Assembly (NCBI GenBank): GCA_030550015.1
Contig: JAUQQG010000024.1
Span: forward strand, 1-38,094
DNA length: 38,094 nucleotides
From: a bacterium
Lineage (GTDB): Bacteria; Sysuimicrobiota; Sysuimicrobiia; Sysuimicrobiales; Thermofontiviventaceae
Direction of reading: 5' to 3'
Positions 2,476-34,442 of this stretch are shown one piece after another (positions within the stretch are counted from its first letter, which is position 1; each line of letters starts with the position of its first letter). The position numbers were made by a program, and so were the translations under genes. The notes under the pieces are model-generated. The model was not told the origin of the DNA. It made no database searches and saw only the letters and a list, made by a program, of their open reading frames with translations.

Positions 2476-2505
2476 ATTGTAAAGAGGGATGGCGCACGAG
2501 CGCAA
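2476..2505 (-). promoter_or_regulatory. Predicted sigma-70-type promoter of pepA
   Basis: On the minus strand TTGCGC (2505-2500) and TACAAT (2481-2476) are separated by 18 bases. Transcription would begin near 2469, giving a leader of about 50 bases before the GTG at 2417. Fits the divergent arrangement and argues against the upstream ATG. Predicted from sequence only. Confidence 0.45.
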
Positions 2506-2575
2506 CCCCTCCCAAGGGAATCTCCCAAGGACGGCGAAAAAGGAAAGAACTGGTAGTGTCGACAGGAGGTTCTCC

Positions 2576-3433
2576 ATGAACATTGGCGCGAACCTGCTTC
2601 CTCTCGTTGGGAATGTCGTGAACCGGGAGGATCCTGATGGAGAGAGGCGGAGGCACCTTCAAGCCATCCGCGCGCTCGTCCAGGACTATGGGTTAGGAAC
2701 GATTGAGCTGACTGGGGACTTCCCAGCTATCTATCCCGAGGTGATGGATCGCCGCTTTTATGAAGAGATCGCAGGAATCCAAGAGGAGCTTGGGTTCAGG
2801 TGCACTGTCCACTTGCCCTTTCTCTGGCTTGATCTGGGGAGCCTCAACGAGGAGATCCGCAGGGCAAGCATCGCTTCCACTCTTGCAGTGGTGGAGGCCA
2901 TGGCCCCTTTAACCGTAGCGATCTATGTGGCGCACCTGTGGGGGTTGTGGTCGAAGGCAGTTGTGGAGGAAATCCCGCCTGATGCGGAGCGTGCAGTGTA
3001 CAAAGCGCTCATTGCGCAGGCCGCCCGGAGCATCGAGGAGCTCAAAAAGAAGATTCCCGCGGAGCAGTTGTGCATCGAGAATCTGACTCCCACGCCGCTC
3101 GACACGTTGCTGATGCTGGCCCGGTCCCAGGGGGTACGTCTCTGCCTCGATGTAGGCCATCTCGCCTCGCGGGGAGAGGATCCTGGGGAAGCAATCAGGG
3201 AGAGCCGCGACGTCCTCGCCCACGTCCACTTGCACGACGTCCTGCGCCGGCAACGGCACGATGGGACCTGGGAGAACCGCGATCACCTGGGGTTGGGAAG
3301 AGGGGATGTCGATTACGCGAAGGTCCTCCAGGCCCTTCGCCAAGGGGGGTTTACGGGGGCAATTGTCCTGGAACACAGCTCGCGCGAGGATCTGGAAGCA
3401 AGCCTAGCAGTGCTCCGCGGCCACCTCCCCTGA
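2576..3433 (+). CDS. Sugar phosphate isomerase/epimerase-like TIM barrel
   Basis: A 285-residue member of the AP-endonuclease-2/xylose-isomerase-like TIM-barrel superfamily, whose members use a divalent metal to isomerise or epimerise keto sugars. Expected metal ligands are visible: E168 (in CIENLTPTP), D192 and H195 (in CLDVGH), H218/H220 with D221 (in HVHLHD), and E266 (in IVLEHS); a His-Leu-Gly-Leu-Gly loop near 237-241 is typical. The ATG at 2576 follows GACAGGAGG at 6-base spacing and is chosen over the upstream ATG 2489, which would have no such site and would run through the promoter region shared with pepA. The substrate cannot be told from sequence. It is not closely like IolO, IolI or Hyi found later in the window, so it is a fifth separate barrel type here. 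Confidence 0.8.
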   Translation: MNIGANLLPLVGNVVNREDPDGERRRHLQAIRALVQDYGLGTIELTGDFPAIYPEVMDRRFYEEIAGIQEELGFRCTVHLPFLWLDLGSLNEEIRRASIASTLAVVEAMAPLTVAIYVAHLWGLWSKAVVEEIPPDAERAVYKALIAQAARSIEELKKKIPAEQLCIENLTPTPLDTLLMLARSQGVRLCLDVGHLASRGEDPGEAIRESRDVLAHVHLHDVLRRQRHDGTWENRDHLGLGRGDVDYAKVLQALRQGGFTGAIVLEHSSREDLEASLAVLRGHLP

Positions 3434-5416: not shown

Positions 5417-7492
5417 ATGGCGTCGAAGAGTGGTAAACGTTTACCAACGATGGCCTTGGAGCGGAGCACGATCAGTGTTGTCCACTGGATGGTTTTCCCT
5501 GGTCCGGGGAGCACCCGATCCACGGCGCGAGGGGAAGCACCGGCAGAGTACGTCCTGAGGACCGTCGAGCAAGTCCTCAAGGATCCCGCGTTTGGGGCAC
5601 TTGAGGTGACGCGCGTCAAGGACCCGAGGGTGCGCCGCCGCATCGCCGAGCTTGCTGCACAGCACGGGAAGACGCTGTACTTCGGCGCGCAGCCAGTCCA
5701 GCTCCTCAACGAGGAGCGGTGGATCCCCCCCACCGATCTCTCCAGCGCCAACGAGGTGGCCCGCCGGCAGGCCGTGGAGCGGATCCTGCGTTGCGTCGAC
5801 GAGGCCTATGAGATCGGCGCCGCCCGCATCAGCCTCCTGAGCGGCCAGGACCCAGGGGAATCCCCCAGCAACCGCTTGCGACAGGAGGCCACGGAGGCTC
5901 TCGTTCGGTCGCTTGCCGAGATCTGCCGCTACGCCCGCGAACGCGCCGAGGAGCTTGGGCGGGAGCCCCTGATGGTCGTCCTGGAACTATTCGACCGCAG
6001 GCCTGAGCGAGGGTTCCACAACCAGCTCATCGGTCCTTCCACGGAAGCCTTGGCCGTGGCGCGTATCGTCAGGGCGCACCTCGGGCACTACAACTTCGGT
6101 CTTCTCTATGACCTGGCCCACATGCCATTGATCCAGGGACCCGACGGTGCTCCCGAGACCCCCGATGCCGTGCGCCTGCTCGCGCCGTTTCTGGTGCATG
6201 TCCACATCGGGGGTACTGTTCTCGATCCGGAAGACCCCCTTTACGGGGACAGTCATGTGCGCCTGGATCACCCGAAGAGCGTCGTGAAGGAGGAAGAACT
6301 GGCTGGTTTTCTCGCCGCCCTCATGGACATCGGCTACACCGGCCCCATCGGCATTGAAGTTGTTCCTCGCCCGGGGGAGCTCTCTGAGGCAGTCCTGGAG
6401 AGCACCCGTGCCTTCCTTGAGGTAGCCCGTAACCGCACCGATGTGAACTACTCCCTCGGGACCTTTTACTGGCACACACGCCGGTTTTTCCCGGAGGCAC
6501 TGTGGTTGCTGCTCACCGAGGCCCGCGTGCGTCAGTCCCAGCGCATTGACGAGGCTGCCAGGAACCGCCGGCGCCCGCAGGCGATCACCCCGCCAGATGG
6601 GAAGCTCTTGATCCTAGCGGCGGACCACCCGGCGAGAAGAGTCACGGCCGCCCTGGACGACCCTACGGCCCTTGGAGATCGGATGGAGTACCTCGGTCGT
6701 GTCTTGCGCGTCCTCACGAGCCCCCTGGTGGACGGCGTGATGGCGACCCCCGACATTGTGGATGACCTCCTCCTGGTGGACTACCTGCTGAAGGACGCGG
6801 GGCACGATGGGCTCCTGGATGGGCGGGTGGTGATCGGGTCGATGAACCGCTCCGGGCTCGCGGGTGTGGAGTACGAGATGGAGGACCGCATCACCGCCTT
6901 CACTCCAGAGGCGATCCACAACCGGGGCCTGGACGGCGGGAAGGCGCTCCTGCGCATCGACCCTGGACGTTACTCGCGGTACTCCATCCAGACCATGTCC
7001 TACGTGGCCCAGGCGTTGAACGCGCTGCGGCGTTATGGCCTGGCGGCGTTCGTGGAGATCCTCCCGGTGGAGCGGGTAGAGGGCCGGTACAGGGTGGTCA
7101 TGGAGCCGGATGAGATGATCCGGGCGGTGGGGGTGGCTTCTGGCCTCGGTGAAGCCTCGGACCGCACGTGGATCAAGATCCCCTATGTCCGGGACTTCTG
7201 GCGCGTTGCCCGGGCCACAACGCTTCCCATCCTCCTCCTGGGAGGGGAGGCACAGGAGAATCCCATTACCATCCTGGAGGACTTCGAACGGGGCATGGGG
7301 GAGGGACCGAACGTGCGCGGCGCCATGGTCGGCCGCAATGTGCTCTACCCAGGCAGGGATGACCCCCGTGCCGTCGCCGAAGCTATCAGCCTGATCGTCC
7401 ACCAAGGTGCCTCCGCCAACGAGGCGGTACGTCATCTCGCCCGGAACCGTGGGGCTGAGGAAAGGTACCTGATGACACGCCTCCTCAGGTAG
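5417..7492 (+). CDS. Fusion: TIM-barrel sugar epimerase + Cgl0159-type aldolase-like domain
   Basis: About 691 residues, two enzymes in one chain. Residues ~20-350 are an AP-endonuclease-2-like TIM barrel (LELFDRRPERG, LLYDLAHMP, LVHVHIGG, GIEVVPRP supply the expected Glu, Asp, His and Glu metal ligands). Residues ~390-690 resemble the Cgl0159 family, an aldolase-like beta/alpha barrel encoded in the Corynebacterium glutamicum inositol cluster: LILAADHPARR, MATPDIVDDLL, VVIGSMNRSGL, LDGGKALLRIDP, WIKIPYVRDF and GAMVGRNVLYP. A role in cleaving or epimerising an inositol-derived keto acid is inferred. The start is uncertain: ATG 5417 has AGGAGG at 5400-5405 (11-base spacing), while ATG 5450 has none but would leave the 5431-5446 operator outside the gene. 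The lacI-type gene follows after about 100 bases. Confidence 0.85.
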   Translation: MASKSGKRLPTMALERSTISVVHWMVFPGPGSTRSTARGEAPAEYVLRTVEQVLKDPAFGALEVTRVKDPRVRRRIAELAAQHGKTLYFGAQPVQLLNEERWIPPTDLSSANEVARRQAVERILRCVDEAYEIGAARISLLSGQDPGESPSNRLRQEATEALVRSLAEICRYARERAEELGREPLMVVLELFDRRPERGFHNQLIGPSTEALAVARIVRAHLGHYNFGLLYDLAHMPLIQGPDGAPETPDAVRLLAPFLVHVHIGGTVLDPEDPLYGDSHVRLDHPKSVVKEEELAGFLAALMDIGYTGPIGIEVVPRPGELSEAVLESTRAFLEVARNRTDVNYSLGTFYWHTRRFFPEALWLLLTEARVRQSQRIDEAARNRRRPQAITPPDGKLLILAADHPARRVTAALDDPTALGDRMEYLGRVLRVLTSPLVDGVMATPDIVDDLLLVDYLLKDAGHDGLLDGRVVIGSMNRSGLAGVEYEMEDRITAFTPEAIHNRGLDGGKALLRIDPGRYSRYSIQTMSYVAQALNALRRYGLAAFVEILPVERVEGRYRVVMEPDEMIRAVGVASGLGEASDRTWIKIPYVRDFWRVARATTLPILLLGGEAQENPITILEDFERGMGEGPNVRGAMVGRNVLYPGRDDPRAVAEAISLIVHQGASANEAVRHLARNRGAEERYLMTRLLR
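5431..5446. promoter_or_regulatory. LacI-type operator 1 (TGGTAAACGTTTACCA)
   Basis: A perfect 16-bp palindrome with a central CpG, the classic form of LacI/GalR-family operators. The identical 16 bases recur at 7562-7577 before the lacI-type gene, so one regulator probably controls both genes. If the fusion gene starts at 5417 the operator lies in codons 5-10; if at 5450 it lies just before the start. Confidence 0.8.
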
Positions 7493-7561: not shown

Positions 7562-7577
7562 TGGTAAACGTTTACCA
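7562..7577. promoter_or_regulatory. LacI-type operator 2, identical to the site at 5431
   Basis: Same perfect palindrome TGGTAAACGTTTACCA. It lies 4 bases before the GGAGGGG ribosome site (7582-7588) of the regulator gene starting at GTG 7592, as expected for autoregulation by a repressor binding within the leader or promoter. Confidence 0.8.
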
Positions 7578-7591
7578 CAACGGAGGGGGAA

Positions 7592-8632
7592 GTGACGCCG
7601 ACGATCCGGGACGTAGCAAGGAAGGCTGGCGTTTCCGTGGCCACGGTCTCCCGGGTAGTCAACGAGAGCGCCCACAAGGTCCGTGAGGAGACGCGCCAGC
7701 GCGTTCTGGAAGCGATCCAAGCGCTTGGCTACCAACCCAACGACGTCGCTCGAGGCCTCAAGAAACGGACATCGCACACCATCGGTCTCATCGTCCCTGA
7801 CATCAGCAACCCCTTCTACCCTGCCATCGCCCGCGGCATCGAGGACGTGGCCAACGCTCACGGGTACGCGATTGTCCTCTGCAATACCTACGAGGACCTT
7901 GCCAAGGAGCGGGAGTACCTCTCTCTCCTTCGGAGACGATGGGTGGATGGCCTGATCTTCGCGACCTCCGGGGTCAACACCAAGCACCTCCAGTGGTTAC
8001 GGGGTCACCGTGTCCCTGTGGTGCTCGTGGCCAGGGATGTCGAGGGGTTAGAGATCGACGCTGTGCTCGTGGACAATTTCCGGGGAGCCTACCTGGCCGT
8101 CCAGCACCTGATCGGGCTCGGCCACCGCAGGATCGGGTTCATTGGGGGCCCATCGACGCTGCACGTCTCTCAGGAGCGCCGGAGAGGGTACCTCCAGGCT
8201 CTTGACGACGCGGGCATCGCACCGGATCCTGCATACAGCGTGGAAGGGAACTTCCGCGCAGAGGGCGGGGATAGCGCGATGCAAAAGCTCTTGCAGCTTT
8301 CCCCTCCCCCGACCGCTGTGTTCGCTGCAAACGACCTGATGGCCATCGGGGCGATGAACGCCATCAAGAGAGTAGGCCTGCGCATCCCGGGAGACGTTGC
8401 TGTGGTGGGGTTCGACGACATTCCCTTCGCCTCCCTCGTAGAGCCGCGCCTCACAACCGTTGCCCAGCCGAAGTACAAGATGGGGGCCATGGCGATGACG
8501 CTGCTCTTGGAGCGCATCGAGGGGAAGGGGGATGGCCCTAGGAAGATTCTCCTAGAGCCGGAGCTCATTGTGCGAGATTCGTGCGGGGCGCGCGAGAAGG
8601 AGGCGGAGGAAATCCCAGCTCCGCCGCCGTGA
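7592..8632 (+). CDS. LacI/GalR-family transcriptional regulator (first)
   Basis: 346 residues. N-terminal helix-turn-helix with the family pattern TIRDVARKAGVSVATVSRV at residues 3-22 plus the hinge helix (PNDVARGL), followed by a periplasmic-binding-protein-like effector domain (IGLIVPDISNPFYPAIARGI, FAANDLMAIGA, VAVVGFDDIPFA). Starts at GTG 7592 behind GGAGGGG. The two identical palindromes at 5431 and 7562 are its probable sites, so it should control itself and the upstream fusion enzyme, and by read-through possibly the iolM-iolI-iolG genes that follow. Effector unknown; an inositol-derived intermediate is a reasonable guess from context. The C-terminal tail (KEAEEIPAPPP) is a disordered extension. 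Confidence 0.93.
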   Translation: MTPTIRDVARKAGVSVATVSRVVNESAHKVREETRQRVLEAIQALGYQPNDVARGLKKRTSHTIGLIVPDISNPFYPAIARGIEDVANAHGYAIVLCNTYEDLAKEREYLSLLRRRWVDGLIFATSGVNTKHLQWLRGHRVPVVLVARDVEGLEIDAVLVDNFRGAYLAVQHLIGLGHRRIGFIGGPSTLHVSQERRRGYLQALDDAGIAPDPAYSVEGNFRAEGGDSAMQKLLQLSPPPTAVFAANDLMAIGAMNAIKRVGLRIPGDVAVVGFDDIPFASLVEPRLTTVAQPKYKMGAMAMTLLLERIEGKGDGPRKILLEPELIVRDSCGAREKEAEEIPAPPP

Positions 8633-8689: not shown

Positions 8690-9859
8690 ATGAAAGGACT
8701 GGTCTTGCATGCGGAATGGCAGCCCCGCCCTGGGTACGTGGTGAGCGAGTTTGAGCGGTCTACGGGGAAGGCAATCACTGGGAGTAGCGTCTGGCGGTAC
8801 CCTAAGCTTAGCCTGGAGGAACTCCCAGAGCCTCGCCTGGGTCCCAAGGACGTCCTCATCCGCCCCAAGGCGTGTGGAATCTGCGGGTCTGACGTGCACT
8901 TCTACGAGACGGACGAGGAGGGGTACATGCTCTACCCCGGTCTCACGAAGTTCCCTGTGGTGATTGGCCACGAGTTCTCCGGGGAGGTCGTAGAGGTGGG
9001 TTCCGAGGTGCGGGACCTCCGTCCAGGGGATATGGTGACCTCGGAAGAGATGATCTGGTGCGGTGAGTGCACTCCCTGCCGCAACGGCTATCCCAACCAG
9101 TGCCTCAACCTCGAGGAGATCGGCTTCACCATCCCAGGCGCTCAGGCCGAGTACATCGTCGTGGGAGCCAAGTATTGCTGGAAGATCAACGACCTGGCAG
9201 AGCGATATGGGGATATTGACCGCGCCTACGAAGCAGGCGCCCTCTGCGAACCAACAAGTGTGGCCTACAATGCTATGTTCACCCGCGCCGGGGGCTTCCG
9301 CCCAGGGGGGTATGTGGCGGTGTTCGGGACAGGGCCTATCGGCTTCGCCGCCATTGCCCTGGCCCGGGCTGCGGGAGCGGGGAAGATCATTGCCTTTGAG
9401 GTCTCCCCAGTTCGTCATGAGCTCGCCAGGAAGATCGGCGCCGACGAGGTGTACAACCCCGTGGAGCTGGAGAGGCAAGGAATCTCCCCGCGCCAGGTAC
9501 TCCTGGAGAGCACGAAGGGGGAGGGGGTGGATATGCATGTGGAGGCAGCGGGTGCTCCTAGTCGTACCATCCCAGAAATGGAGGCGACACTTGCCATTGG
9601 CGGCAAGATCGTGATGATCGGGAGGGCCTCGGAGCGGACGCCGATTTATCTCGAACACTTCCAGACCCACGCCGCCCAGATTTACGGCGCGCAGGGGCAC
9701 TCGGGCTACGGGAACTTCCCCTACGTGATCCGCCTCATGGCCTCCGGGAAGATCGACATGACCCAGATTATCACCAGCAGGTTCCCTTTGGATCGCGCGG
9801 TGGAGGCCGTCCAGAAGGCCGCCCGGCGCGAGGACGGTAAGATCATGATCCGGCAGTGA
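8690..9859 (+). CDS. iolM: Zinc-dependent scyllo-inosose 3-dehydrogenase (IolM-like)
   Basis: 389-residue medium-chain zinc dehydrogenase. Catalytic zinc ligands C62 (in KACGICGSD) and H94-E95 (GHEFSG) and all four structural zinc cysteines C124, C127, C130, C138 are present, as is the NAD loop GTGPIG at 213-218. Beyond the generic fold, the N-terminal HAEWQPRPG, the segment SSVWRYP, TDEEGYMLYPGLTKFPV, and GAQGHSGYGNFP match what I recall of T. maritima TM0412 (IolM), which oxidises 2-keto-myo-inositol a second time. It starts a run of genes (iolI 9 bases later, then iolG) and follows the lacI-type gene. In context it should feed IolN encoded about 10 kb downstream. A sorbitol-dehydrogenase-like activity cannot be excluded, but all partner enzymes are nearby. 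Confidence 0.88.
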   Translation: MKGLVLHAEWQPRPGYVVSEFERSTGKAITGSSVWRYPKLSLEELPEPRLGPKDVLIRPKACGICGSDVHFYETDEEGYMLYPGLTKFPVVIGHEFSGEVVEVGSEVRDLRPGDMVTSEEMIWCGECTPCRNGYPNQCLNLEEIGFTIPGAQAEYIVVGAKYCWKINDLAERYGDIDRAYEAGALCEPTSVAYNAMFTRAGGFRPGGYVAVFGTGPIGFAAIALARAAGAGKIIAFEVSPVRHELARKIGADEVYNPVELERQGISPRQVLLESTKGEGVDMHVEAAGAPSRTIPEMEATLAIGGKIVMIGRASERTPIYLEHFQTHAAQIYGAQGHSGYGNFPYVIRLMASGKIDMTQIITSRFPLDRAVEAVQKAARREDGKIMIRQ

Positions 9860-9868
9860 GATTCTTCC

Positions 9869-10696
9869 ATGCGGTTCGGGTTGAACGGGGCAACGACGGG
9901 GAAGGCCGACCTCCTCCTGGACATCCGCGTAGCTGCAGCAGCAGGGTACCAGTACCTTGAGATCCGAGATGTCAAGCTTGAATCCTACCTTCAACGTGGG
10001 GGGACTATCGAGGCGCTGGCCAGAACATTTGAGGAAGCGGGCGTACGCCCTTTGAGCGTGAACGCCCTGGAACGATCCACCCTGGGCACGCCTGAGACGC
10101 GGAAGACGGTCCTTGATCGCCTGAGGAGGTTCTGCGAATGGGCGGAAGGCCTCGATTGTCCGTACGTTGTGGCTGTGCCAAGTCCCCTGGAAGCTCCGAT
10201 GGCCCGCGAGGAGGTCGTCACACAGTCCATGGAGGCGTTGCAACAGATAGCGGAGGTGGCGAAGGAGTACGGCGTCAAGGTGGGGTTCGAATTTCTTGGG
10301 TTCGCGAGCTGTTCTGTGAACACCCTGGAGCTCGCTGCGGAGATTGTGGACCGTGTGGGCGATCCCTCCCTTGGCCTCGTCATTGACACTTTCCACTTCT
10401 ACGTGGGAGGGTCGTCGTGGAGCGCCCTTGAGACATTAGATCCCCAGAGGATCTTCATCGTCCACCTCGACGACGCAGAGGATCGGCCGCGCCATACGTT
10501 GACCGATGCGAATCGGGTTCTCCCTGGAGACGGGGTGATCCCCTTGCGTGACCTGGTCGGTCGCCTGGAGGCGCGCGGGTACCGTGGGCCTTACTCCATC
10601 GAGCTCTTCCGGCCGGAGTACTGGGAATGGGATCCGCTAGACCTTGCAGTAAAGGCCAGAGAGCGGATGGAACAGCTCCTCCCGATTTCTCTTTAG
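9869..10696 (+). CDS. iolI: 2-keto-myo-inositol isomerase (inosose isomerase)
   Basis: 275 residues, close to Bacillus subtilis IolI (278). The resemblance runs end to end: LNGATT, YLEIRDV, LSVNALE, YVVAVPSP, GVKVGFEFLG, CSVNTLELAAEIV, LVIDTFHFYVGGSS, IFIVHLDDAED, LTDANRVLPGDGVI and SIELFRPEYWEWDP. Metal ligands fall at E141, D173, H199 and E245, the spacing of the TIM-barrel isomerase site. IolI interconverts 2-keto-myo-inositol and 1-keto-D-chiro-inositol, letting other inositol stereoisomers enter the route. It lies 9 bases after iolM. The stop codon TAG is the first three bases of the 9-bp repeat array that fills the gap to iolG. Confidence 0.9.
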   Translation: MRFGLNGATTGKADLLLDIRVAAAAGYQYLEIRDVKLESYLQRGGTIEALARTFEEAGVRPLSVNALERSTLGTPETRKTVLDRLRRFCEWAEGLDCPYVVAVPSPLEAPMAREEVVTQSMEALQQIAEVAKEYGVKVGFEFLGFASCSVNTLELAAEIVDRVGDPSLGLVIDTFHFYVGGSSWSALETLDPQRIFIVHLDDAEDRPRHTLTDANRVLPGDGVIPLRDLVGRLEARGYRGPYSIELFRPEYWEWDPLDLAVKARERMEQLLPISL

Positions 10697-10754: not shown

Positions 10755-11735
10755 GTGACGGTCAAGGTTGGGATTCTCGGAGGAGGGTTCATTGGCCGCG
10801 TGCACGCGCTCAACTTACGGAAGGATGCACGGGTGCACATCGTGGGCATCGCCGACATTGTCCCTGCGGTAGCGAGGCGCCTGGCAGAGGAGGTAGAGAC
10901 GCGCGCGTTCCAGAACCTGGAAGATCTCCTGAATGCAGGGGCGGAAGCGATCTACGTCTGCACCCCCAACGTCCACCATGTGGAGCCCGTCCTTCAGGCC
11001 CTCGCGGCGGGCGCCCACGTCTTCAGCGAGAAGCCCATGGCGACCTCCCTGGAAGGGGCCCGCAAAATTCTAGAAGCCACAAAGCAGGCAAAGGGGATCT
11101 ACCAGCTGGGGTTCAACAGGAGGTTCAGCAACGTCTACAAGTTCGCCAAGCGTCTCATCGACGATGGGCGCATCCGTCCCCTCCTCGCCCAGATGAAGCA
11201 TAACCGGGGTGAGCTACAGCAGCCTCCCTGGACCGGCGATCCAAAGGTCACGGGAGGATATCTCTATGAGACCCCCATCCACCTCTTCGACATGGGCAGG
11301 TTCCTGTTCGGGGACGTGGAGGAGGTGGTGGGGTGGGCAAAGCAGAGCGTCTATGGGGAGCTCGATGGGTTCGTCCTCCTCTTCCGCTTCCGCAACGGGG
11401 TGATCGCCTCGATTACCACAGTGGCGCACACGAGCTGGCTCTTTCCTTACGAGCGTGTGGAGATCTACGGGGAGCACCAGATGATTGTCACCGAGGAGCT
11501 GGAGCGAGCAGCCTTCAGCCCGGGCCCTCGCGAGGAGGCAGAGGCCATCGAGTGTCTCCATATGCCCTTCGAGGAGAAGTGGGGCTATGCTGAGGAGGAC
11601 CGCCTCTTCATCGATGCGGTACTCGGTGAGCGCCCTCCGGCTGTTACCGCGGAGGATGGATATCGTGCCACCGAACTTGTGGAGGCGGTCTACCAGGCAG
11701 TCAGAGATGGGCACCCTGTGCGGCTTCCGCTTTGA
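10755..11735 (+). CDS. iolG: Gfo/Idh/MocA dehydrogenase, inositol 2-dehydrogenase-like
   Basis: 326 residues, starting at GTG 10755 after AGGAGGGAGA. N-terminal Rossmann domain with GILGGGFIGRVHA (6-18) and the family motif SEKPMA (K93); the C-terminal oxidoreductase fold carries GGYLYETPIHLFDMGRFL (167-184). H176 and K93 match catalytic residues of inositol dehydrogenases, while the usual Asp four residues before the His is Glu here (E172). Such enzymes oxidise myo-inositol to 2-keto-myo-inositol with NAD. Position directly after iolM and iolI supports that role, though related sugars (scyllo- or chiro-inositol, glucose) are possible for this family. The next gene is the first transporter binding protein. 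Confidence 0.8.
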   Translation: MTVKVGILGGGFIGRVHALNLRKDARVHIVGIADIVPAVARRLAEEVETRAFQNLEDLLNAGAEAIYVCTPNVHHVEPVLQALAAGAHVFSEKPMATSLEGARKILEATKQAKGIYQLGFNRRFSNVYKFAKRLIDDGRIRPLLAQMKHNRGELQQPPWTGDPKVTGGYLYETPIHLFDMGRFLFGDVEEVVGWAKQSVYGELDGFVLLFRFRNGVIASITTVAHTSWLFPYERVEIYGEHQMIVTEELERAAFSPGPREEAEAIECLHMPFEEKWGYAEEDRLFIDAVLGERPPAVTAEDGYRATELVEAVYQAVRDGHPVRLPL

Positions 11736-11814: not shown

Positions 11815-12822
11815 ATGTGGAGACTTGGAGTGGTGTGCATCGTACTACTCCTCATCGCGGGGATGCTCCTCCCCGCGCAGGGGCAACCCCAGCGTCTTAT
11901 GGTCTACGGGGCGATCCATGAGACGGAGATCGCCAAGATGCTGGAGGCGTTCACGAAAGCCACGGGGATTCCCGCAGAGTTCATCCGCGGCTCTAGCGGG
12001 GAGCTTGTGGCCAGGATCAAGGCAGAGCGGGCCTCTCCAAAAGCAGACGTCAAGCTAGGAGGCCCAGCCGATTCCCACGAGGCCCTGGCCCTGGAGGGAC
12101 TCTTGATGCCCTACATCCCGCCGGAGGCCAAGAACATCGACCGGCGTTTCCGGAGTCCGCTGCACTACTGGCATGGTTTCTACATTGGAGCCCTTGGGAT
12201 TGCCATCAACAAACCTCGTTTTGACAAGGAGCTGCGGCCCAAGGGCGTTGACTATCCTAAGACCTGGGAGGATCTGCTGAACCCTGCCTTCAAGGGGGAG
12301 ATCGTCGTGGCCAACCCCGCTACCTCCGGGACGGCCTTTACCTTCGTGGCTACCCATCTCCAGCGCCTGGGCTGGGAGAAGGGGTGGGAGTACTTGACGG
12401 CGTTCCACAAGAACGTCAACCATTATACTCGGAGCGGTGCGGCACCAGCCAACATGGCGGCAACGGGGGAGTTCATCATCGGCATCGCTTTCGGTCATGA
12501 CATCCTGAAACCGGCGAAGCAGGGGTATCCCGTAATGCTCGTGTACCCACCAGACACGGGGTGGGAGATCGGGGCAGTCTCCATTATCAAACGAGGTCCG
12601 AACCCTGAGGCGGCGAAAAAGTTCGTCAACTGGGTCCTCACCCGCGAGGCGGGGAAGCTCCACACCGAGATCTCCCTGCGGATCTCCGTGCGTCCTGATG
12701 TTCCCGTTCCCGAGGGTGTCATCCCCATCAGCCAGATCAAGCTACTGAAGAACTATGATCTGAGCTGGGCCGCCCGCGAGCGGAATCGCATCCTGGCAGA
12801 GTGGGAGCGAAGGTTTAAGTAG
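11815..12822 (+). CDS. ABC transporter substrate-binding protein, Afu/Fbp class (copy 1)
   Basis: 335 residues with a secretion signal (hydrophobic residues ~5-20, likely cut after AQG near 23), then a family-1/6-type extracellular binding protein of the kind annotated as 'iron(III)-binding'. LMVYGAIHETEIAKMLEAF, the segment HYWHGFYIGALGI, PKTWEDLLNPAFKG and PPDTGWEIGAVSIIKRGPNP are class features. The paired tyrosines that bind ferric iron in FbpA are not seen, and AfuA of the same class binds hexose phosphates. I therefore infer a phosphorylated sugar or inositol as ligand. Strong GGGGGGAGG ribosome site. It is a clear paralogue of the protein at 15511 and is followed by its own permease. 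Confidence 0.88.
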   Translation: MWRLGVVCIVLLLIAGMLLPAQGQPQRLMVYGAIHETEIAKMLEAFTKATGIPAEFIRGSSGELVARIKAERASPKADVKLGGPADSHEALALEGLLMPYIPPEAKNIDRRFRSPLHYWHGFYIGALGIAINKPRFDKELRPKGVDYPKTWEDLLNPAFKGEIVVANPATSGTAFTFVATHLQRLGWEKGWEYLTAFHKNVNHYTRSGAAPANMAATGEFIIGIAFGHDILKPAKQGYPVMLVYPPDTGWEIGAVSIIKRGPNPEAAKKFVNWVLTREAGKLHTEISLRISVRPDVPVPEGVIPISQIKLLKNYDLSWAARERNRILAEWERRFK

Positions 12823-12909
12823 AGTTGGGATTTTGTACTTCGTGCGTCGTGAGCGGGGAGATCGCAGGTGAACCAAATCAAGAGATGACCAGATCGGCAA
12901 GAGGCTAGG

Positions 12910-14553
12910 ATGCTGGACCAAGTGCGCCTTCAAGCCAAGGAGTTCCGGCGCATCGCCGCGGACCCGCTGCTGCTCACCCTCCTTGTCATAGTGGCGGGGT
13001 TGCTTGTCGTGTTTATTCTCTTCCCCGTGGTGAGGGTATTGACCCTCCCGCGCCTCGAACACTGGCACGAGTTTCTGGGAAGGCCAGCCCTGTTGAGGGC
13101 TGCGATCCACAGCTTGGTCATGATGATCCTTTCCACCACCACGGCCACCCTCGTGGGGTTGCTGTTCGCTTACGCCCTGGTGCGGACCCAGATGCCTATG
13201 AAAGCATTCTTCAGGACGCTCACGCTCCTCCCGCTCATCTCCCCGCCGTTTGTGACGGGACTTGCGTTCATCCTGTTGTTCGGGCGCAGGGGACTGTTCA
13301 CCTATTCGGTGCTCGGGCTTGACCTCAACCCCTATGGATGGCACGGCCTGTGGATGGCCCAAACGCTGGCCTTCTTCCCTGTGGCCTACCTCACGATTGC
13401 CGGGGTTCTGCGGTCCATCGATCCGGCCCTGGAGTTGGCAGCGCAGGACCTCGGCGCGAGCGGGTTCCAGATTTTCCGCACCGTCACCCTTCCCCTTCTC
13501 ACGCCGGGGATCGCGAGCGCTGCGCTCCTCGTGGGGATCTTCGTCCTCGCCGACTTTGGGAATCCTATGCTCATCGGGGGCAACTACTCTGTCCTGGCGA
13601 CGGAAGCCTACATGCAGGTGATTGGCCGGTACAACACGGAGATGGCAGCGTTGCTCGCCTCCGTTCTCCTCTTGCCCTCCCTCGCCCTTTTCCTTGCCCA
13701 GCGCTATGTGATGGAGAAGAGGTCGTTTGTGACGGTGACCGGGCGCCCAAGCGCGCTCGGGCGGAAGCCCGCGCCCTGGTATGTGACCTGGCCGCTGTTT
13801 GGATTTTGCCTTGCCGTTTCCCTGGTGATCCTGGCGATTTATCTCGTCATCGTCCTTGGGGCTTTCTCGAAGGTCTGGGGGGTCGACTGGAGCCTCAGCC
13901 TGCGTAACTTCCAGTACACCATTTTCCGCCAGCGTGATCTCTACAACAGCGTCCGGTTTGCCCTCTCCGCGGCTGTCCTGACGGCGGCCCTCGCGACCCT
14001 GAGCGCTTACCTCATCGAGCGGAAGAGTTTCCTGGGGAGGGAAGTTCTGGACTTTTTCACCGTCCTACCTGCGGCGGTCCCCGGGACCCTCATCGGCATT
14101 GGCTACGTCCTCGCCTTCAACCAGCCTCCGTTGGAGCTCACAGGGACGGCGGCGATCATCGTCCTGTGCATGGCCTTCCGCACACTCCCTGTGGGGTACC
14201 GCAACGCCGTCTCTGTCCTCCACCAGATCGACGTGGCCATCGAGCGGGCATCGGAGGACCTCGGGGCGGACAGCCTGCGGACGTTCGTGCACATCGTCTT
14301 GCCCCTCCTCAAGTATGCGTTCTTCGCCACGTTGGTTTACACGTTCGTGAAGTCCATCAATACGCTCAGCGCAGTGATCTTCCTGATTTCCCCCGGGAAT
14401 GTCGTGGCTTCCGCATCAATCCTTGGTCTCGCGGAGCACGGCTACTGGGGGCAGGCTGCAGCCCTTGCCACCGCGCTCATCACCTTGGGCCTCCTCAGCG
14501 TGGTGGTCTTCCGTCTCATTGCCGGGAGGCGGGCGCAGCTCTTTGAACTGTGA
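12910..14553 (+). CDS. ABC permease, double-domain FbpB/AfuB type (copy 1)
   Basis: 547 residues with about 12 membrane helices in two homologous halves. Each half has the ATPase-docking EAA loop: AAQDLGASGFQIFRTVTLP around residues 177-195 and ASEDLGADSLRTFVHIVLP around 438-456. One such polypeptide replaces the two permeases of ordinary importers. It lies 87 bases after its binding protein and is followed 13 bases later by the HAD phosphatase gene. No ATPase follows directly; the one at 18213 must serve this pair as well as the second. Confidence 0.9.
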   Translation: MLDQVRLQAKEFRRIAADPLLLTLLVIVAGLLVVFILFPVVRVLTLPRLEHWHEFLGRPALLRAAIHSLVMMILSTTTATLVGLLFAYALVRTQMPMKAFFRTLTLLPLISPPFVTGLAFILLFGRRGLFTYSVLGLDLNPYGWHGLWMAQTLAFFPVAYLTIAGVLRSIDPALELAAQDLGASGFQIFRTVTLPLLTPGIASAALLVGIFVLADFGNPMLIGGNYSVLATEAYMQVIGRYNTEMAALLASVLLLPSLALFLAQRYVMEKRSFVTVTGRPSALGRKPAPWYVTWPLFGFCLAVSLVILAIYLVIVLGAFSKVWGVDWSLSLRNFQYTIFRQRDLYNSVRFALSAAVLTAALATLSAYLIERKSFLGREVLDFFTVLPAAVPGTLIGIGYVLAFNQPPLELTGTAAIIVLCMAFRTLPVGYRNAVSVLHQIDVAIERASEDLGADSLRTFVHIVLPLLKYAFFATLVYTFVKSINTLSAVIFLISPGNVVASASILGLAEHGYWGQAAALATALITLGLLSVVVFRLIAGRRAQLFEL

Positions 14554-14566
14554 GAAAGGGAATAGG

Positions 14567-15406
14567 ATGCGGTACAAGATGCTCGTAGCGGACATCGATG
14601 GGACTCTCGTCCGGGTTGTTCCCGAGGGGCAGGGATCGAGAGATGCCCCTGTGGTCCCTGTGGAGACCCTGGAGGCGCTCCGGGAGATCCGAAGGAGGGG
14701 AGTCCGCTTCCTCCTTGCCACTGGGCGGATGTGGGCTTCCGCCCGAAGATTCTTCGAGATGGCAGAGGCAGATCCCCCGGCGATCCTCTACAATGGGGCA
14801 ATGGTCTACGACTTTGCTCGGGGGACGACGCTCTATCGCCGGCAGGTGCCTCTTGCCACGGCACAGAAGGTCCTGCGCCTCCTCCGGGAGTTCCCTGAGG
14901 TGCAGCCTCATGTCTACGTGGACGATCAGGTGTACGTTGGGCGCATCAACCGGATCACCGAGGAGTACCAACGCAAGGACAGCATCCCCGTGCGGGAGGT
15001 GGGAGACCTCCTGCAATTCCTTGAGGCGGATCCCGTGAAGATCCTCATCATCGGGGAGAGAGCCCGTTTAGAGCAGCTTGCCCAGGCGATCCGCGCGCTC
15101 CCGGGAGACCCCGTAAACTTCGTCTTCTCAGAACCGACCTATCTGGAGATCCTACCTCCCGGGACCTCGAAGGGGAAGGCCCTGCAGTTCGTCGCCGAGA
15201 CCCTCGGTATCCCTAAGGAGGCTATTGTCGCGGTGGGGGATGATCTCAACGACCTGGAGATGATCCGCTACGCAGGGGTGGGTGTCGCTATGGCCGACGC
15301 CCCGGAGGGGCTGCGTGCAGAAGCGGACTACGTTTGCGGAACGGTAGAGGAAGGAGGGCTGAGGGAGGTCATCGAGCGTTTTCTCCTTAGGGAAAATCCC
15401 TACTGA
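14567..15406 (+). CDS. HAD-superfamily (Cof-type) phosphatase
   Basis: 279 residues. Motif I is ADIDGTLV with nucleophile D9 and acid/base D11; motif II is LLATGRM (T52); motif III lysine is in GTSKGKAL (K202/K204); motif IV is VAVGDDLNDLEMI with G224-D-D-x-N-D. The large cap between motifs II and III (residues ~80-195) marks the Cof/YbiV subclass, which dephosphorylates small phosphate esters including sugar phosphates. The ATG at 14567 follows AATAGG, 13 bases after the permease gene. Its place between two copies of a transporter whose class includes sugar-phosphate importers suggests it removes the phosphate from the imported substrate. That link is inference. Confidence 0.88.
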   Translation: MRYKMLVADIDGTLVRVVPEGQGSRDAPVVPVETLEALREIRRRGVRFLLATGRMWASARRFFEMAEADPPAILYNGAMVYDFARGTTLYRRQVPLATAQKVLRLLREFPEVQPHVYVDDQVYVGRINRITEEYQRKDSIPVREVGDLLQFLEADPVKILIIGERARLEQLAQAIRALPGDPVNFVFSEPTYLEILPPGTSKGKALQFVAETLGIPKEAIVAVGDDLNDLEMIRYAGVGVAMADAPEGLRAEADYVCGTVEEGGLREVIERFLLRENPY

Positions 15407-15510
15407 AAATCTGGCGGGTTGGCATCGAGGGCTTCCACACCATGCCAGGAATGCGGTGGGATTTTCGCAAGGGAAGGCAATAAGACCAATACAGGAGGGG
15501 AGGGATTCCC

Positions 15511-16536
15511 ATGCAGAGACGGCTTCTCTCCATAGCCCTTCTGAGCGTCCTGGTCCTAGCCCTGGCCAGCGGGATCCAGACCAGTGCGCAGCCCAGGAAG
15601 ATCGTCATCTACTCCGCCATCGAGGAGAAGGTGACGACGGAGATCGTCAAGGCGTTCCGCGCCAGGACTGGGATCGAGAGCGAGGTCTTAAGCCTAGCGG
15701 CAGCAGGGACGCTCGCCACGCGGATCCGGGCCGAGAAGGCGAAGCCAAGGGCGGATGTGTTCATGGGAGGATCCGCGGACATCCATGCTCCTTTGGCCAA
15801 GGAAGGGTTGCTGCTCAAATACATCCCCAGGACCCTCGCCGAGGCCAAGATCGACAAGCAGTTCTACGATCCCGAGCACTACTGGCACGGGTGGTACCTG
15901 GGGGCCCTGGGCATCTTGGTGAACCGGGACCGGTTTGAGCGGGAGATCGCTCCAAAGGGCGTCTCCATGCCCAAGACCTGGGATGATCTGCTTAACCCCG
16001 TATACAAGGGCCACTTCGCTATGCCGAGCCCCGTGACGACGGGAGGGGGATATATCTTCGTAGCTACCCAGGTCTTCCGCTTGGGGGAGGATCGGGCGTT
16101 TACTTGGCTCAAGCAGCTCATGGCAAACGCCGCCCACATCACTCCTACGGCCCCAGCTACAGTGACGCTCATCTCCCGTGGAGAGGCGATCGTGGCGATG
16201 ATGTGGGCCCATGAGGGGTTTGTGGCCCGCCTCATGGGCTTCCCGGTGGAGGTGATCCTGCCTCCGGATACGGGGTTTGAGATCGGATCCGTCTCGATCA
16301 TCAAGGGTGGGCCCAACCCTGAGGGAGCAAAGGAATTTGTGGATTTCCTCATGACGCCCCTCCCGCAGGGAATCAACGCGGCGTACGGGATGCGCTATCC
16401 GGTGCGTCCAGATGCCGCTTCCCCCAGAGGGGCACCGCCTTTTGCCTCGATCAAGTTTGTGAAGTACGACCGGGTGTGGGCCATTGAGAACCGGGACCGG
16501 CTCATCCGGAGATGGCAGACGGAGATTGGTCGCTAG
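15511..16536 (+). CDS. ABC transporter substrate-binding protein, Afu/Fbp class (copy 2)
   Basis: 341 residues with a signal peptide (LLSIALLSVLVLALASG; cut probably after TSAQ region near 26). Parallel to the copy at 11815 throughout: YSAIEEKVTTEIVKAF, HYWHGWYLGALGI, PKGVSMPKTWDDLLNP, PPDTGFEIGSVSIIKGGPNP. As in copy 1, there is no tandem Tyr pair for ferric iron. The residues after the hinge differ (HITPTAPATVTLI here, HYTRSGAAPANMA in copy 1), which could give the two copies different ligands. Strong ribosome site AGGAGGGGAGGG. Followed by its own double-domain permease after 12 bases. Confidence 0.88.
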   Translation: MQRRLLSIALLSVLVLALASGIQTSAQPRKIVIYSAIEEKVTTEIVKAFRARTGIESEVLSLAAAGTLATRIRAEKAKPRADVFMGGSADIHAPLAKEGLLLKYIPRTLAEAKIDKQFYDPEHYWHGWYLGALGILVNRDRFEREIAPKGVSMPKTWDDLLNPVYKGHFAMPSPVTTGGGYIFVATQVFRLGEDRAFTWLKQLMANAAHITPTAPATVTLISRGEAIVAMMWAHEGFVARLMGFPVEVILPPDTGFEIGSVSIIKGGPNPEGAKEFVDFLMTPLPQGINAAYGMRYPVRPDAASPRGAPPFASIKFVKYDRVWAIENRDRLIRRWQTEIGR

Positions 16537-16548
16537 GAGGGTTATCCT

Positions 16549-18186
16549 ATGCTCGAGTGGGCGGGGACGCGCAGGGGGCGGGTTCTTCTCGATGATCCAG
16601 GGCTGGCTCTCGTATTCGCACTTGTGGCTACCCTGCTCGTGGTCTTCGTGGTTCTCCCCACCCTTCGTGTGATCAGCTATCCCGCTCTGGCCGACTACCT
16701 CGCCGTCCCCGCCCAACCCCGCTGGATCCAGGCCATCCGGAACAGCCTGGTCATGATGGTCCTCTCGACGGCTACGGCGACGAGCGTGGGGTTCCTCTTT
16801 GCCTTCGCCATCTCCCGCGGCCTTCCAGGGGCACGGTTCTTCGCGACCATGGCCATGCTCCCGCTCTTCGCCCCTCCTTTCATGGTGGCCTTCTCCTACA
16901 TCCTGATGTTCGGCCGAAACGGGCTGATCACCAAAGAACTCCTCGGGCTCAATGTCAATATCTTCGGCTGGCCAGGCCTCTGGCTGGTGCAGACCGTGGC
17001 CTTCTTCCCCTATGCGGCCTTGATCATCGGGGGCGTTCTCGAGGCCATCAATCCATCCATGGAGTATGCGGCCAGGTGGCTGGGGGCGCGGGAGTGGGAT
17101 GTCTATCGAACCGTGGTGATCCCTCTGGCGAAGCCTGGGATCACGGCAGCGGCGCTCCTTGTGGCCATCTCGGTTCTGGCTGATTTCGGAAACGCCGTGC
17201 TCATCGCCGGGAATTTCCCCCTGCTGGCAACCGAGGCGTGGTTCCTCATCGAGGGGTGGGCCGATCTCAAAGGGGCGGCCATCGCCGTGAGCCTCCTGCT
17301 CATCCCCACAGTGGGCCTCTTCCTCCTCGAGCGGAGGTGGGTACGCCAGCGGATCTACACCGTGGTGACGGGACGGGGGACGCGCGTTTCCCGGGCTTCT
17401 GTCCCTACCTTCCTCAAGTGGCCTATGGTATTTGGTTGTTCTCTCGTCTCCCTGCTTGTCCTGATTGTCTATGTGGGTGTATTCGCCGGGAGCTTCGTCA
17501 CCACTTGGGGATACAATTGGCGCCTGACCCTGGATCACTGGCTCCTGGCAAAGGAATGGCTCGGCCCGCTCCTCAACAGCCTGAAGGTAGGAGTGATGAG
17601 CGCGGTATTGACCACGGCCATCGCTGTGACCGCGGCATTCCTCACCGCCTGCTACCGGCTCTATGGCGCAAGGTTTCTGGACTTCACGGCAGTGGTCCCG
17701 GCCGCCCTTCCCGGCGTCTTCGTGGGTGTGGGATTCCTCCTGACGTTCTCACGTCCTCCCTTAGAGCTGGTGGGTACGGCTTGGGCACTGATCCTGGCCC
17801 TGACGTTTTGGCACATGCCTATGGGGTACCAGGCAGCCCTGGCCGGGCTGGCCCAAATCGAGCGGGCGATCCAGGAGGCGGCGGCAAACCTGGGTGCTTC
17901 GGGGCTCAGGACGTTCGTGGACATCTACCTCCCCTTGTTGCGCCACGCCGTGATCGCCTCCTTCACGACCTCGTTCATGCGTGCGGTAACGAATTTGAGC
18001 ATCGCAGTCTTCCTCGTCACACCAGGGAACATGGTAGGGACCTTCGCTATCCTCATGGCGATCAATAATGGGAACTGGGGAACAGCGGCTGCGCTGACTG
18101 TGGCGCTCCTTTTGGTGAGCCTAGGGATCCTGGCCTTAGGCCAGACGCTTCTTGGCCGTGGGCTGCGCCCGTTGCCCTCAGGATGA
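16549..18186 (+). CDS. ABC permease, double-domain FbpB/AfuB type (copy 2)
   Basis: 545 residues, about 12 helices, two EAA loops: AARWLGAREWDVYRTVVIP (residues ~178-196) and AAANLGASGLRTFVDIYLP (~443-461). Same size and order of segments as the copy at 12910 (GRNGLITKELLGLNVNIFGW here, the equivalent GRRGLFTYSVLGLDLNPYGW there), so the binding-protein/permease unit was duplicated. AGGAGGG precedes the ATG. The ATPase gene follows after 26 bases. Confidence 0.9.
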   Translation: MLEWAGTRRGRVLLDDPGLALVFALVATLLVVFVVLPTLRVISYPALADYLAVPAQPRWIQAIRNSLVMMVLSTATATSVGFLFAFAISRGLPGARFFATMAMLPLFAPPFMVAFSYILMFGRNGLITKELLGLNVNIFGWPGLWLVQTVAFFPYAALIIGGVLEAINPSMEYAARWLGAREWDVYRTVVIPLAKPGITAAALLVAISVLADFGNAVLIAGNFPLLATEAWFLIEGWADLKGAAIAVSLLLIPTVGLFLLERRWVRQRIYTVVTGRGTRVSRASVPTFLKWPMVFGCSLVSLLVLIVYVGVFAGSFVTTWGYNWRLTLDHWLLAKEWLGPLLNSLKVGVMSAVLTTAIAVTAAFLTACYRLYGARFLDFTAVVPAALPGVFVGVGFLLTFSRPPLELVGTAWALILALTFWHMPMGYQAALAGLAQIERAIQEAAANLGASGLRTFVDIYLPLLRHAVIASFTTSFMRAVTNLSIAVFLVTPGNMVGTFAILMAINNGNWGTAAALTVALLLVSLGILALGQTLLGRGLRPLPSG

Positions 18187-18212
18187 TATCTTAAAGAGGG
18201 GGAAAGGGATCC

Positions 18213-19283
18213 ATGAGCACTGTGCACGTTCGGCTCATTCACGTCGTGAAGCGCTTTGGAACGACCCCTGCTGTGGACGATGTCTCGTTGGATGTCCTGG
18301 AGGGGAGCTTCACCACTTTACTAGGACCCAGCGGGTGCGGGAAAACGACGACGTTGCGCCTCATTGCAGGTTTCTACGAGCCCGACCAGGGGGAGATCTG
18401 GATCGGTGGGAAAAAGATGAACGATGTTCCTCCTCACAGACGCCCCACAGCCATGGTCTTCCAAGAGTATGCCCTGTTCCCCCACATGACCGTGTTCGAG
18501 AACGTCGCCTACGGGCTCCGCATGCGTCGTCTCCCCCGGAGGGAGATTGAGGAGCGGGTAGGTTCCATCCTGGAGTTCGTAGGCCTTCCAGGGCTGGAAG
18601 GGAAGTTCCCCCACCAGCTCAGCGGCGGGCAACAGCAGCGCGTGGCCTTGGCGCGCGCCCTCGTGGTGGAGCCAGAGGTTCTCCTTTTGGATGAGCCCCT
18701 GAGCAACCTAGACGCCAAGTTGCGCATCCGTGTACGCACGGAGATCCGGGAGATCCAGCGGCGGTTGAAGAAGACCACCATCTATGTCACCCATGACCAG
18801 GAGGAGGCCTTGTCCATCTCCGACGTCATCGCGGTGATGGACCGCGGGCGCATTGTGCAAGTGGGGACGCCCACGGAGATCTACCACCGCCCTGCCAACA
18901 GGTTCGTGGCGGACTTCGTGGGGCTGGCGAACTTCGCCACGGGGAGGGTTGTGGAGGCATCCGACGGTCGGGTGAGCGTGGACATCGGGGTGAGCCGCCT
19001 CTCCCTCATTGAGGAGGATGCCCGCCTACGCCCCGGCGACCAGGTGGTGGTCTCGGTCCGGCCAGAAGCCATCCATCTCAGTCTGCATCCCCCTGCGCAG
19101 GAGAACACGCTGAAAGGGGTGATCACTTCGGCAAGTTTCCTCGGGAGTGTCACGCGGTACTGGGTGCGCGTGGGGGAGATGGAGTGGATCGTTGATGTGC
19201 CGGGTGGGGCACCCGAAGGTGCCACCGGGGAGCGTTACCTGTTCCTCCCACCGGAGAACATCCGAGTAGTGGAGAAGGTGTGA
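18213..19283 (+). CDS. ABC transporter ATP-binding protein (FbpC/AfuC/PotA type)
   Basis: 356 residues. Complete nucleotide-binding domain: Walker A GPSGCGKTT (38-46), Q-loop VFQEYALFPHMTV (Q84), signature LSGGQQQRVALARAL (136-150), Walker B LLLDEP with E161, D-loop SNLD, H-loop H194. The C-terminal ~110 residues form a TOBE/MOP-type domain (QVVVSVRPEAIHL, GSVTRYWVRVG), usual in importers of this class. It is the only ATPase in the window, yet there are two Afu-type permeases and a CUT1-type permease pair. It may energise all of them, as MsmK/MalK-type subunits can. A hairpin follows in the gap to iolN. Confidence 0.93.
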   Translation: MSTVHVRLIHVVKRFGTTPAVDDVSLDVLEGSFTTLLGPSGCGKTTTLRLIAGFYEPDQGEIWIGGKKMNDVPPHRRPTAMVFQEYALFPHMTVFENVAYGLRMRRLPRREIEERVGSILEFVGLPGLEGKFPHQLSGGQQQRVALARALVVEPEVLLLDEPLSNLDAKLRIRVRTEIREIQRRLKKTTIYVTHDQEEALSISDVIAVMDRGRIVQVGTPTEIYHRPANRFVADFVGLANFATGRVVEASDGRVSVDIGVSRLSLIEEDARLRPGDQVVVSVRPEAIHLSLHPPAQENTLKGVITSASFLGSVTRYWVRVGEMEWIVDVPGGAPEGATGERYLFLPPENIRVVEKV

Positions 19284-20352: not shown

Positions 20353-20385
20353 AAAGGCAAGAGAGCGGGAGAGGGATCGCGCGTC

Positions 20386-34440: not shown

Positions 34441-34442
34441 AG

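Follow-up and report, generated by a model that had tools for sequence, protein, structure and literature searches.

What reaction do barrel proteins of the Cgl0159 family catalyse, and why is one of them joined, in a single polypeptide, to a second barrel of the epimerase type? Both questions are raised by a gene in contig JAUQQG010000024.1 (assembly GCA_030550015.1), from a bacterium of the Thermofontiviventaceae, of which we analysed positions 1 to 38,094 (38,094 nucleotides, hereafter the window). A preliminary description, drawn from the sequence alone, had noted the fusion of an epimerase-type barrel to a Cgl0159 barrel and its placement next to inositol genes. Both observations stand: matches to AP_endonuc_2 (PF01261) and Cgl0159 (PF22649) occur in one open frame, and IolM, IolN and IolO are all encoded in the window above their NCBIfam cut-offs. 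The gene product is a conserved, genuine two-barrel protein and a variant of known families. With the balance tipped only slightly in its favour, we regard it as a bifunctional enzyme of keto-sugar-acid breakdown, combining an aldolase (the C-terminal half, or C-half) with a keto-hexonate epimerase (the N-half), whose predicted products in this organism are dihydroxyacetone phosphate (DHAP) and tartronate semialdehyde.

One open frame encodes two barrels

In the open reading frame translation of the window, the fusion gene (5396/5417-7492, forward strand) is a single frame without interruption. Two ATG codons come into question as its start, at 5417 (691 residues) and at 5450 (680 residues; gene 5450-7492). 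The ribosome-binding site is better before 5417; we consider 5450 (residue 12) the more likely start, because it corresponds to where the majority of homologous fusions start. Residues are numbered here from ATG 5417. PF01261 matches residues 71-325 with an E-value of 1.6e-17, far above the Pfam cut-off, and PF22649 matches residues 395-653 (E 1.1e-74, 251.3 bits against a gathering cut-off of 27), covering positions 1-246 of the 251 in the profile. Since free-standing relatives of the N-half end near residue 335 and those of the C-half start near residue 343, we place the junction at about residues 336-343 (6422-6445), between the N-half (5450-6421) and the C-half (6446-7489). The preliminary description had put the linker slightly too far downstream, at about 6,450-6,600. 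A structure prediction of the two-domain protein reached a mean predicted local distance difference test score of 79 and a predicted template modelling score of 0.61, values too uncertain for conclusions on domain orientation or channelling.

The fusion is conserved in other genomes

A pattern scan of one genome collection returned a single further fusion, in Limnochordaceae Bu05, and badly underestimated the spread of the protein: profile searches among the relatives of Bu05 added 14 genomes in which the fusion is full-length and intact in one frame, with 45-79% identity per half. The Bu05 copy is 80% identical to that of the window and has a single homopolymer indel, which might be of the kind expected of sequencing error; it lies inside the N-half, away from the junction, and the junction itself is read through in one frame. 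Across the 15 intact copies (the window's and the 14 others), no substitution affects the residues predicted to bind metal in the N-half (four ligands) or the lysine predicted to form the Schiff base in the C-half, and the two halves are similarly conserved. That both halves also occur as free versions might suggest two genes joined by an assembly error, a possibility that the preliminary description had itself raised. We rule it out as vanishingly improbable, because 14 other genomes share the same one-frame junction with all catalytic residues kept. The architecture is therefore no one-off, and its copies fall into a single clade in the trees of both halves (support 100/100 for the N-half and 91/82, which is not decisive, for the C-half). 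This suggests that one fusion event, as judged from sequence, lies behind all of them.

The window's copy clusters with those of Bu05 and genome G101, while the fusion was not found in 42 order-mates of the window genome. The simplest reading is thus that the fusion is of Limnochordia affinity and was transferred into the lineage of the window genome. At several loci (L095, L098-L100, L102-L105), the fusion gene is found between groESL and an aspartate-type aminotransferase gene and/or a 2-phosphosulfolactate-phosphatase-like gene, a stable setting among housekeeping genes that has no evident connection with sugar acids.

The C-half resembles DHAP-binding class I aldolases

The C-half aligns with the solved Cgl0159 protein of Corynebacterium glutamicum (3fok; E 2.6e-51; TM-score 0.93, by target), a structure that has been available since 2009. 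It is like that protein in family match, fold and invariant residues; the C. glutamicum protein and its relatives in actinobacterial iolC clusters are, however, free-standing, whereas here the domain is fused to an epimerase-type barrel and belongs to an IolMNO cluster. The preliminary description had allowed that the C-half might lack Cgl0159 residues, but the family invariants AADHP, NRxGL, DR, E, WxKxP, GG and GR are all kept, both in an alignment of 20 sequences and in the 15 fusions. After 3fok, the nearest solved structures are MJ0400 and LsrF, class I aldolases that bind DHAP. The predicted Schiff-base residue, Lys587 (7175-7177), is aligned with the lysine region of these two enzymes and is invariant in the same two sets. 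E547 and D403, the latter followed by H404 in the AADHP motif, are invariant in the sequence alignment and are candidates for further catalytic residues. DUF2090 (PF09863), the domain of the IolC-DUF2090 aldolase, is not among the Pfam matches of the fusion. The likeness of fold points to an aldolase that acts on the product of a kinase.

The neighbourhoods of Cgl0159 genes point the same way. In 21 loci a sugar kinase gene is adjacent to the Cgl0159 domain or within three genes of it, and these kinases belong to four separate families: IolC (L054-L058), FGGY (L002, L033, L053, L096, L097), relatives of pyrophosphate-dependent phosphofructokinase (PPi-PFK-like; L022-L024, L026-L028, L052, L110) and relatives of ADP-dependent phosphofructokinase (ADP-PFK-like; L035, L101, L108). 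Such an association would be hard to explain unless the Cgl0159 aldolase takes the product of the kinase. Outside actinobacteria, Hyi/GarR or a relative of glyoxylate/hydroxypyruvate reductase is usually also nearby. From fold, invariant residues and gene context, our best reading is that Cgl0159 would act as a class I aldolase on 5-keto-hexonates with a terminal phosphate, yielding DHAP and a three-carbon semialdehyde. In the openly accessible literature that we searched, we found no paper naming Cgl0159 and no reaction assigned to the family. The hope expressed in the preliminary description, that the fusion could reveal what Cgl0159 does, is partly borne out: a role is indicated, but mainly by the neighbours of the domain and not by the fusion.

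Each half also occurs alone in clusters of the same type. In two families of the same order (f2 and f5), a free C-half is part of IolN-IolO clusters, beside a PPi-PFK-like or FGGY kinase and Hyi and/or GarR; in a third (f7), free N-halves directly follow IolO and, where a genome has both free halves, these are on different contigs. In the window genome, then, the fusion stands in place of the free aldolase. A separate run in the distant genome G088 (L035:7066-13692), comprising a hydroxyacid dehydrogenase, an ADP-PFK-like kinase, a diverged Cgl0159 (29%), an IolG-like protein, IolB and an IolO-like protein, is an independent instance of the module. At L022:9339-10724, and likewise in genome G037, a sulfatase-family gene lies between a free Cgl0159 gene and the PPi-PFK-like kinase gene, a hint that the substrates may be sulfated inositols or sugars.

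Cleavage of a classical inositol intermediate is a rival reading

DHAP and malonate semialdehyde are the products of 2-deoxy-5-keto-gluconate 6-phosphate aldolase. This enzyme carries out the cleavage known from the classical inositol route, and its known versions, IolJ and DUF2090, fail to account for many users of inositol (PMC9007349). The C-half would share with IolJ and IolC-DUF2090 the coupling to a kinase and the inferred type of cleavage, to DHAP and a three-carbon semialdehyde acid; the protein families differ, however, and the fusion partner of DUF2090 is the kinase, not an epimerase. On actinobacterial plasmids, the Cgl0159 gene directly follows iolC in clusters shared with iolA, iolB and iolD, and there the C-half chemistry would be applied to 2-deoxy-5-keto-gluconate 6-phosphate, giving DHAP and malonate semialdehyde.

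It could be argued from these clusters that the C-half is the same classical aldolase in the window genome too, with an IolB-like partner. An IolB/KduI-family isomerase gene, marginal as IolB, is indeed present in the window (22253-23017, forward strand; TIGR04378, 205.6 bits, cut-off 205), and an IolB-family gene adjoins several fusions or free C-halves. However, the window genome has no IolD above cut-off (best TIGR04377 match 234.8 bits against 715), so 5-deoxyglucuronate should not form; its cluster has IolM, IolN and IolO instead; and GarR and Hyi fit tartronate, not malonate, semialdehyde. The TIGR04377 matches below cut-off were set aside as other thiamine-diphosphate enzymes. We consider the classical reaction distinctly unlikely here, and prefer an aldolase that forms tartronate semialdehyde.

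The N-half is an epimerase-type barrel distinct from IolO

The N-half carries the Glu-Asp-His-Glu metal set (E190, D232, H263, E314) found in ketose epimerases and IolO, and its nearest solved structures are ketose 3-epimerases, among them TM0416/IolO (2zvr). The preliminary description's designation of this half as an epimerase is accordingly sound at the level of the barrel, but does not extend to IolO: although family and metal ligands are shared with TM0416, the N-half scores only 29.6 bits against the NF041099 cut-off of 300, and the window genome has a true IolO as a separate gene at 20383-21198. Nor is it a canonical member of the Hyi family, as it has no TIGR03234 match and has His263 in the position of a Gln. 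We think that it is probably a ketose-uronate epimerase, acting on keto-hexonates of the D-tagaturonate type before or after their phosphorylation, as its ligands and structural neighbours would allow.

Two other roles for the N-half have to be weighed, and either would dispense with a kinase step between the two barrels. In the first, which is its principal rival, the N-half would act after the aldolase, isomerising tartronate semialdehyde, which is reactive; the resulting hydroxypyruvate would be reduced to glycerate by a 2-hydroxyacid dehydrogenase, and the fusion would serve to hand over an unstable aldehyde. A relative of glyoxylate/hydroxypyruvate reductase flanks free N-halves in many loci, and the N-half shares its fold family with Hyi. 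However, at the position where the window's Hyi has Gln, the N-half carries a His ligand, as ketose epimerases and IolO do; it does not match the Hyi model, and the window genome already encodes both Hyi and GarR; we regard this role as improbable.

In the second, both halves would work on a phosphorylated keto-hexonate: the kinase would act first, the N-half would epimerise the phosphate and the C-half would cleave it, making the protein a true two-step enzyme. Enzymes that are fused often carry out successive steps; one of the structural neighbours of the N-half is UlaE (3cqi, 3cqj), an epimerase that acts on a phosphate; and a PPi-PFK-like gene directly follows IolO at L075-L077. The gene order IolO, free N-half, kinase (L037-L050), on the other hand, is at least equally compatible with a substrate that carries no phosphate, and we hold this second role, too, to be unlikely. 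Our preference remains for an epimerase of keto-hexonates of the D-tagaturonate type. The preliminary description had predicted that one barrel makes the substrate of the other; this does not follow directly. What the conserved neighbours predict is an epimerase with an unphosphorylated substrate and an aldolase with a phosphorylated one, a kinase acting in between, unless the substrate of the N-half is itself the phosphate or the three-carbon product.

The free N-halves of f7, like those at L037, L038, L039, L041, L043, L044, L047, L049 and L050, lie between IolO and a glyoxylate/hydroxypyruvate-reductase-like 2-hydroxyacid dehydrogenase, often followed by an FGGY kinase and a PdxA-like dehydrogenase; such loci may represent a branch of the pathway that proceeds by oxidative decarboxylation. 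At L040, L045, L046 and L048, N-half relatives occur in clusters of tripartite ATP-independent periplasmic transporters with distant IolM-like and IolN-like genes, and Lys replaces the first metal-binding Glu. These relatives may catalyse something else or belong to a separate pathway. The PPi-PFK-like genes directly after IolO (L075:1034-2206, L076:1-747, L077:7774-8946), in genomes without Cgl0159, are candidates for a tagaturonate kinase.

A proposed route from inositol to DHAP and glycerate

Every substrate and product in the following scheme, as well as the sequence in which epimerase and kinase act, is deduced from gene content, the conservation of both active sites, the neighbourhoods and the partial exclusion of KDPG (2-keto-3-deoxy-6-phosphogluconate) aldolase described below. 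The upper route would lead from inositol through an IolG-like Gfo/Idh/MocA dehydrogenase (10755-11735; below the equivalog cut-off), the scyllo-inosose 3-dehydrogenase IolM (8690-9859; NF041097, 583.6 bits, cut-off 450) and the 3-dehydro-scyllo-inosose hydrolase IolN (19353-20318; NF041098, 542.3 bits, cut-off 245) to 5-keto-L-gluconate, which the 5-keto-L-gluconate epimerase IolO (20383-21198; NF041099, 352.3 bits, cut-off 300; TM0416 structures, E 5e-75) would convert to D-tagaturonate. The N-half, as a metal-dependent ketose epimerase/isomerase on the same pool of keto-hexonates, would most likely interconvert stereoisomers of the D-tagaturonate type to suit the kinase and the aldolase. An FGGY sugar kinase (26221-27714), whose relatives adjoin Cgl0159 in L033, L053 and L002, is the candidate keto-hexonate kinase. 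Its product would be a 5-keto-hexonate phosphorylated at its terminus (in ketose numbering, a hexulosonate 1-phosphate), which the C-half, forming a Schiff base through Lys587, would cleave between the ketose C3 and C4 to DHAP and a three-carbon semialdehyde acid.

From aldol chemistry, a phosphorylated 5-keto-hexonate that bears a 2-hydroxyl would give DHAP and tartronate semialdehyde. The known substrate of GarR is tartronate semialdehyde, which Hyi interconverts with hydroxypyruvate. The presence of Hyi and/or GarR, or of a glyoxylate/hydroxypyruvate-reductase relative, in the same clusters fits this product. In the window, GarR (28573-29472; TIGR01505, 401.8 bits, cut-off 340.75), together with Hyi (27720-28514; TIGR03234, 358.9 bits, cut-off 353), would turn it into glycerate; all these genes are on the forward strand. 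Whether the scheme represents a general phosphorylative-aldolytic branch for inositol and uronates, in which unrelated kinases phosphorylate the terminal hydroxymethyl group, Cgl0159 cuts to DHAP and tartronate semialdehyde and the fused epimerase feeds in stereoisomers, we consider almost evenly balanced, leaning if anything towards doubt.

In Thermotoga maritima, the inositol route continues through UxaE and through KDG (2-keto-3-deoxygluconate) and KDPG. The window shares IolM, IolN and IolO, above cut-offs, with the IolMNO pathway of that species (Rodionova et al. 2013, as cited in PMC3750489), but the window genome lacks UxaE, UxuA and KDPG aldolase and has the kinase-Cgl0159-GarR set instead. 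The L-glucose pathway of Luteolibacter LG18 includes a step like that proposed here, from 5-keto-L-gluconate to D-tagaturonate by an IolO-type epimerase; it proceeds, however, via altronate, KDG and KDPG aldolase, whereas we propose direct phosphorylation and cleavage (PMC12632266). If correct, the route would convert inositol and uronates to DHAP and glycerate, bypassing KDG/KDPG, and would be missed by annotation pipelines. It would also assign to Cgl0159 a function that holds across phyla, supply the aldolase that is missing from inositol catabolism in actinobacteria, and add a third kind of 2-deoxy-5-keto-gluconate 6-phosphate aldolase to IolJ and DUF2090. In the sulfoglycolytic Embden-Meyerhof-Parnas route, a C6-acidic ketose 1-phosphate is cleaved to DHAP and a C3 acid aldehyde, which is reduced by a GarR-family enzyme. 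The proposed route would be its carboxylate counterpart, working similarly with a carboxylate in place of the sulfonate and with unrelated kinase and aldolase families. In the same literature as above, we found no description of the proposed route, of keto-hexonate kinases or phosphates, or of DHAP and tartronate semialdehyde as a product pair in inositol breakdown.

Co-occurrence with KDPG aldolase, and points against the proposed route

UxaE (PF16257), UxuA (PF03786) and KDPG aldolase (PF01081) are absent from the window genome, which is 94% complete; KDG aldolases of other families were outside this search. Among 30 order-level IolN genomes, KDPG aldolase is absent in 9 of the 12 with Cgl0159 in an inositol setting and present in 17 of the 18 others (Fisher p=1.3e-4, with no correction for phylogeny). 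Among IolN genomes, there is thus a partial tendency for a cluster-borne Cgl0159 and KDPG aldolase to be mutually exclusive. Because of this tendency and the absence of UxaE, UxuA, KDPG aldolase and above-cut-off IolD, we infer that the C-half could be the terminal hexonate aldolase of the window genome. Together, the partial exclusion and the association with four kinase families narrow Cgl0159 from 'function unknown' to a specific assay.

Several observations weigh against the proposed route, beginning with the limit of the aldolase search just given. In the two families where both states occur, the exclusion has a p of 0.05 (0.007 at at least 85% completeness), and the window genome does contain one gene of the galactarate/altronate-dehydratase family. 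Genomes G007, G023 and G034 have IolN-IolO-PPi-PFK (and Hyi where the contig reaches) without Cgl0159, so another aldolase must act there. Conversely, free Cgl0159 genes of f7 (L029, L030, L032, L034, L042) are found beside a short-chain dehydrogenase/reductase gene, in some loci with an LLM-class (F420-type) oxidoreductase gene, and not beside inositol genes. The functional assignment of the N-half is weak. About ten fusions sit away from kinase and inositol genes, near groESL or other housekeeping genes, and close IolN is absent from all 18 searched genomes that carry the fusion or part of it or the separate halves, Bu05 included.

This last result (0 of 18) rules out a fusion specific to the IolMNO pathway. 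Since the searched carriers lack close IolN, the role is not inositol-specific; the fusion would serve a broader pool of keto-sugar acids, perhaps uronates entering via an IolB-family isomerase.

Operators and other features of the window

A perfect 16-bp palindrome of the LacI operator type, TGGTAAACGTTTACCA, is located at the start of the fusion gene (5431-5446), and an identical copy (7562-7577) precedes the LacI-family regulator gene (7592-8632, forward strand; Pfam) and the iolM operon. A pattern search of the window gave these two matches and no other, against 0.02 expected. The identical operators tie the fusion gene to the inositol regulon. The cluster also encodes, on the forward strand, an AP_endonuc_2 protein with no specificity assigned (9869-10696; Pfam match) and a Cof-type haloacid dehalogenase hydrolase that is kept in related IolN clusters (14399-15406). 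Two transporter gene sets, distant relatives of 2-aminoethylphosphonate ATP-binding cassette systems, lie inside the inositol cluster (11815-19283) and are found again in relatives; their probable cargo is inositol or a keto-acid. The region downstream of the sugar cluster encodes a helicase of the SNF2 type (1044 aa, DUF3670) and, after it, a SWIM zinc-finger protein (31306-35384). Upstream of the cluster, at 2489-3433, another AP_endonuc_2 barrel is a cobamide-remodelling phosphodiesterase of the CbiR type (NF041277, 130 bits, cut-off 105).

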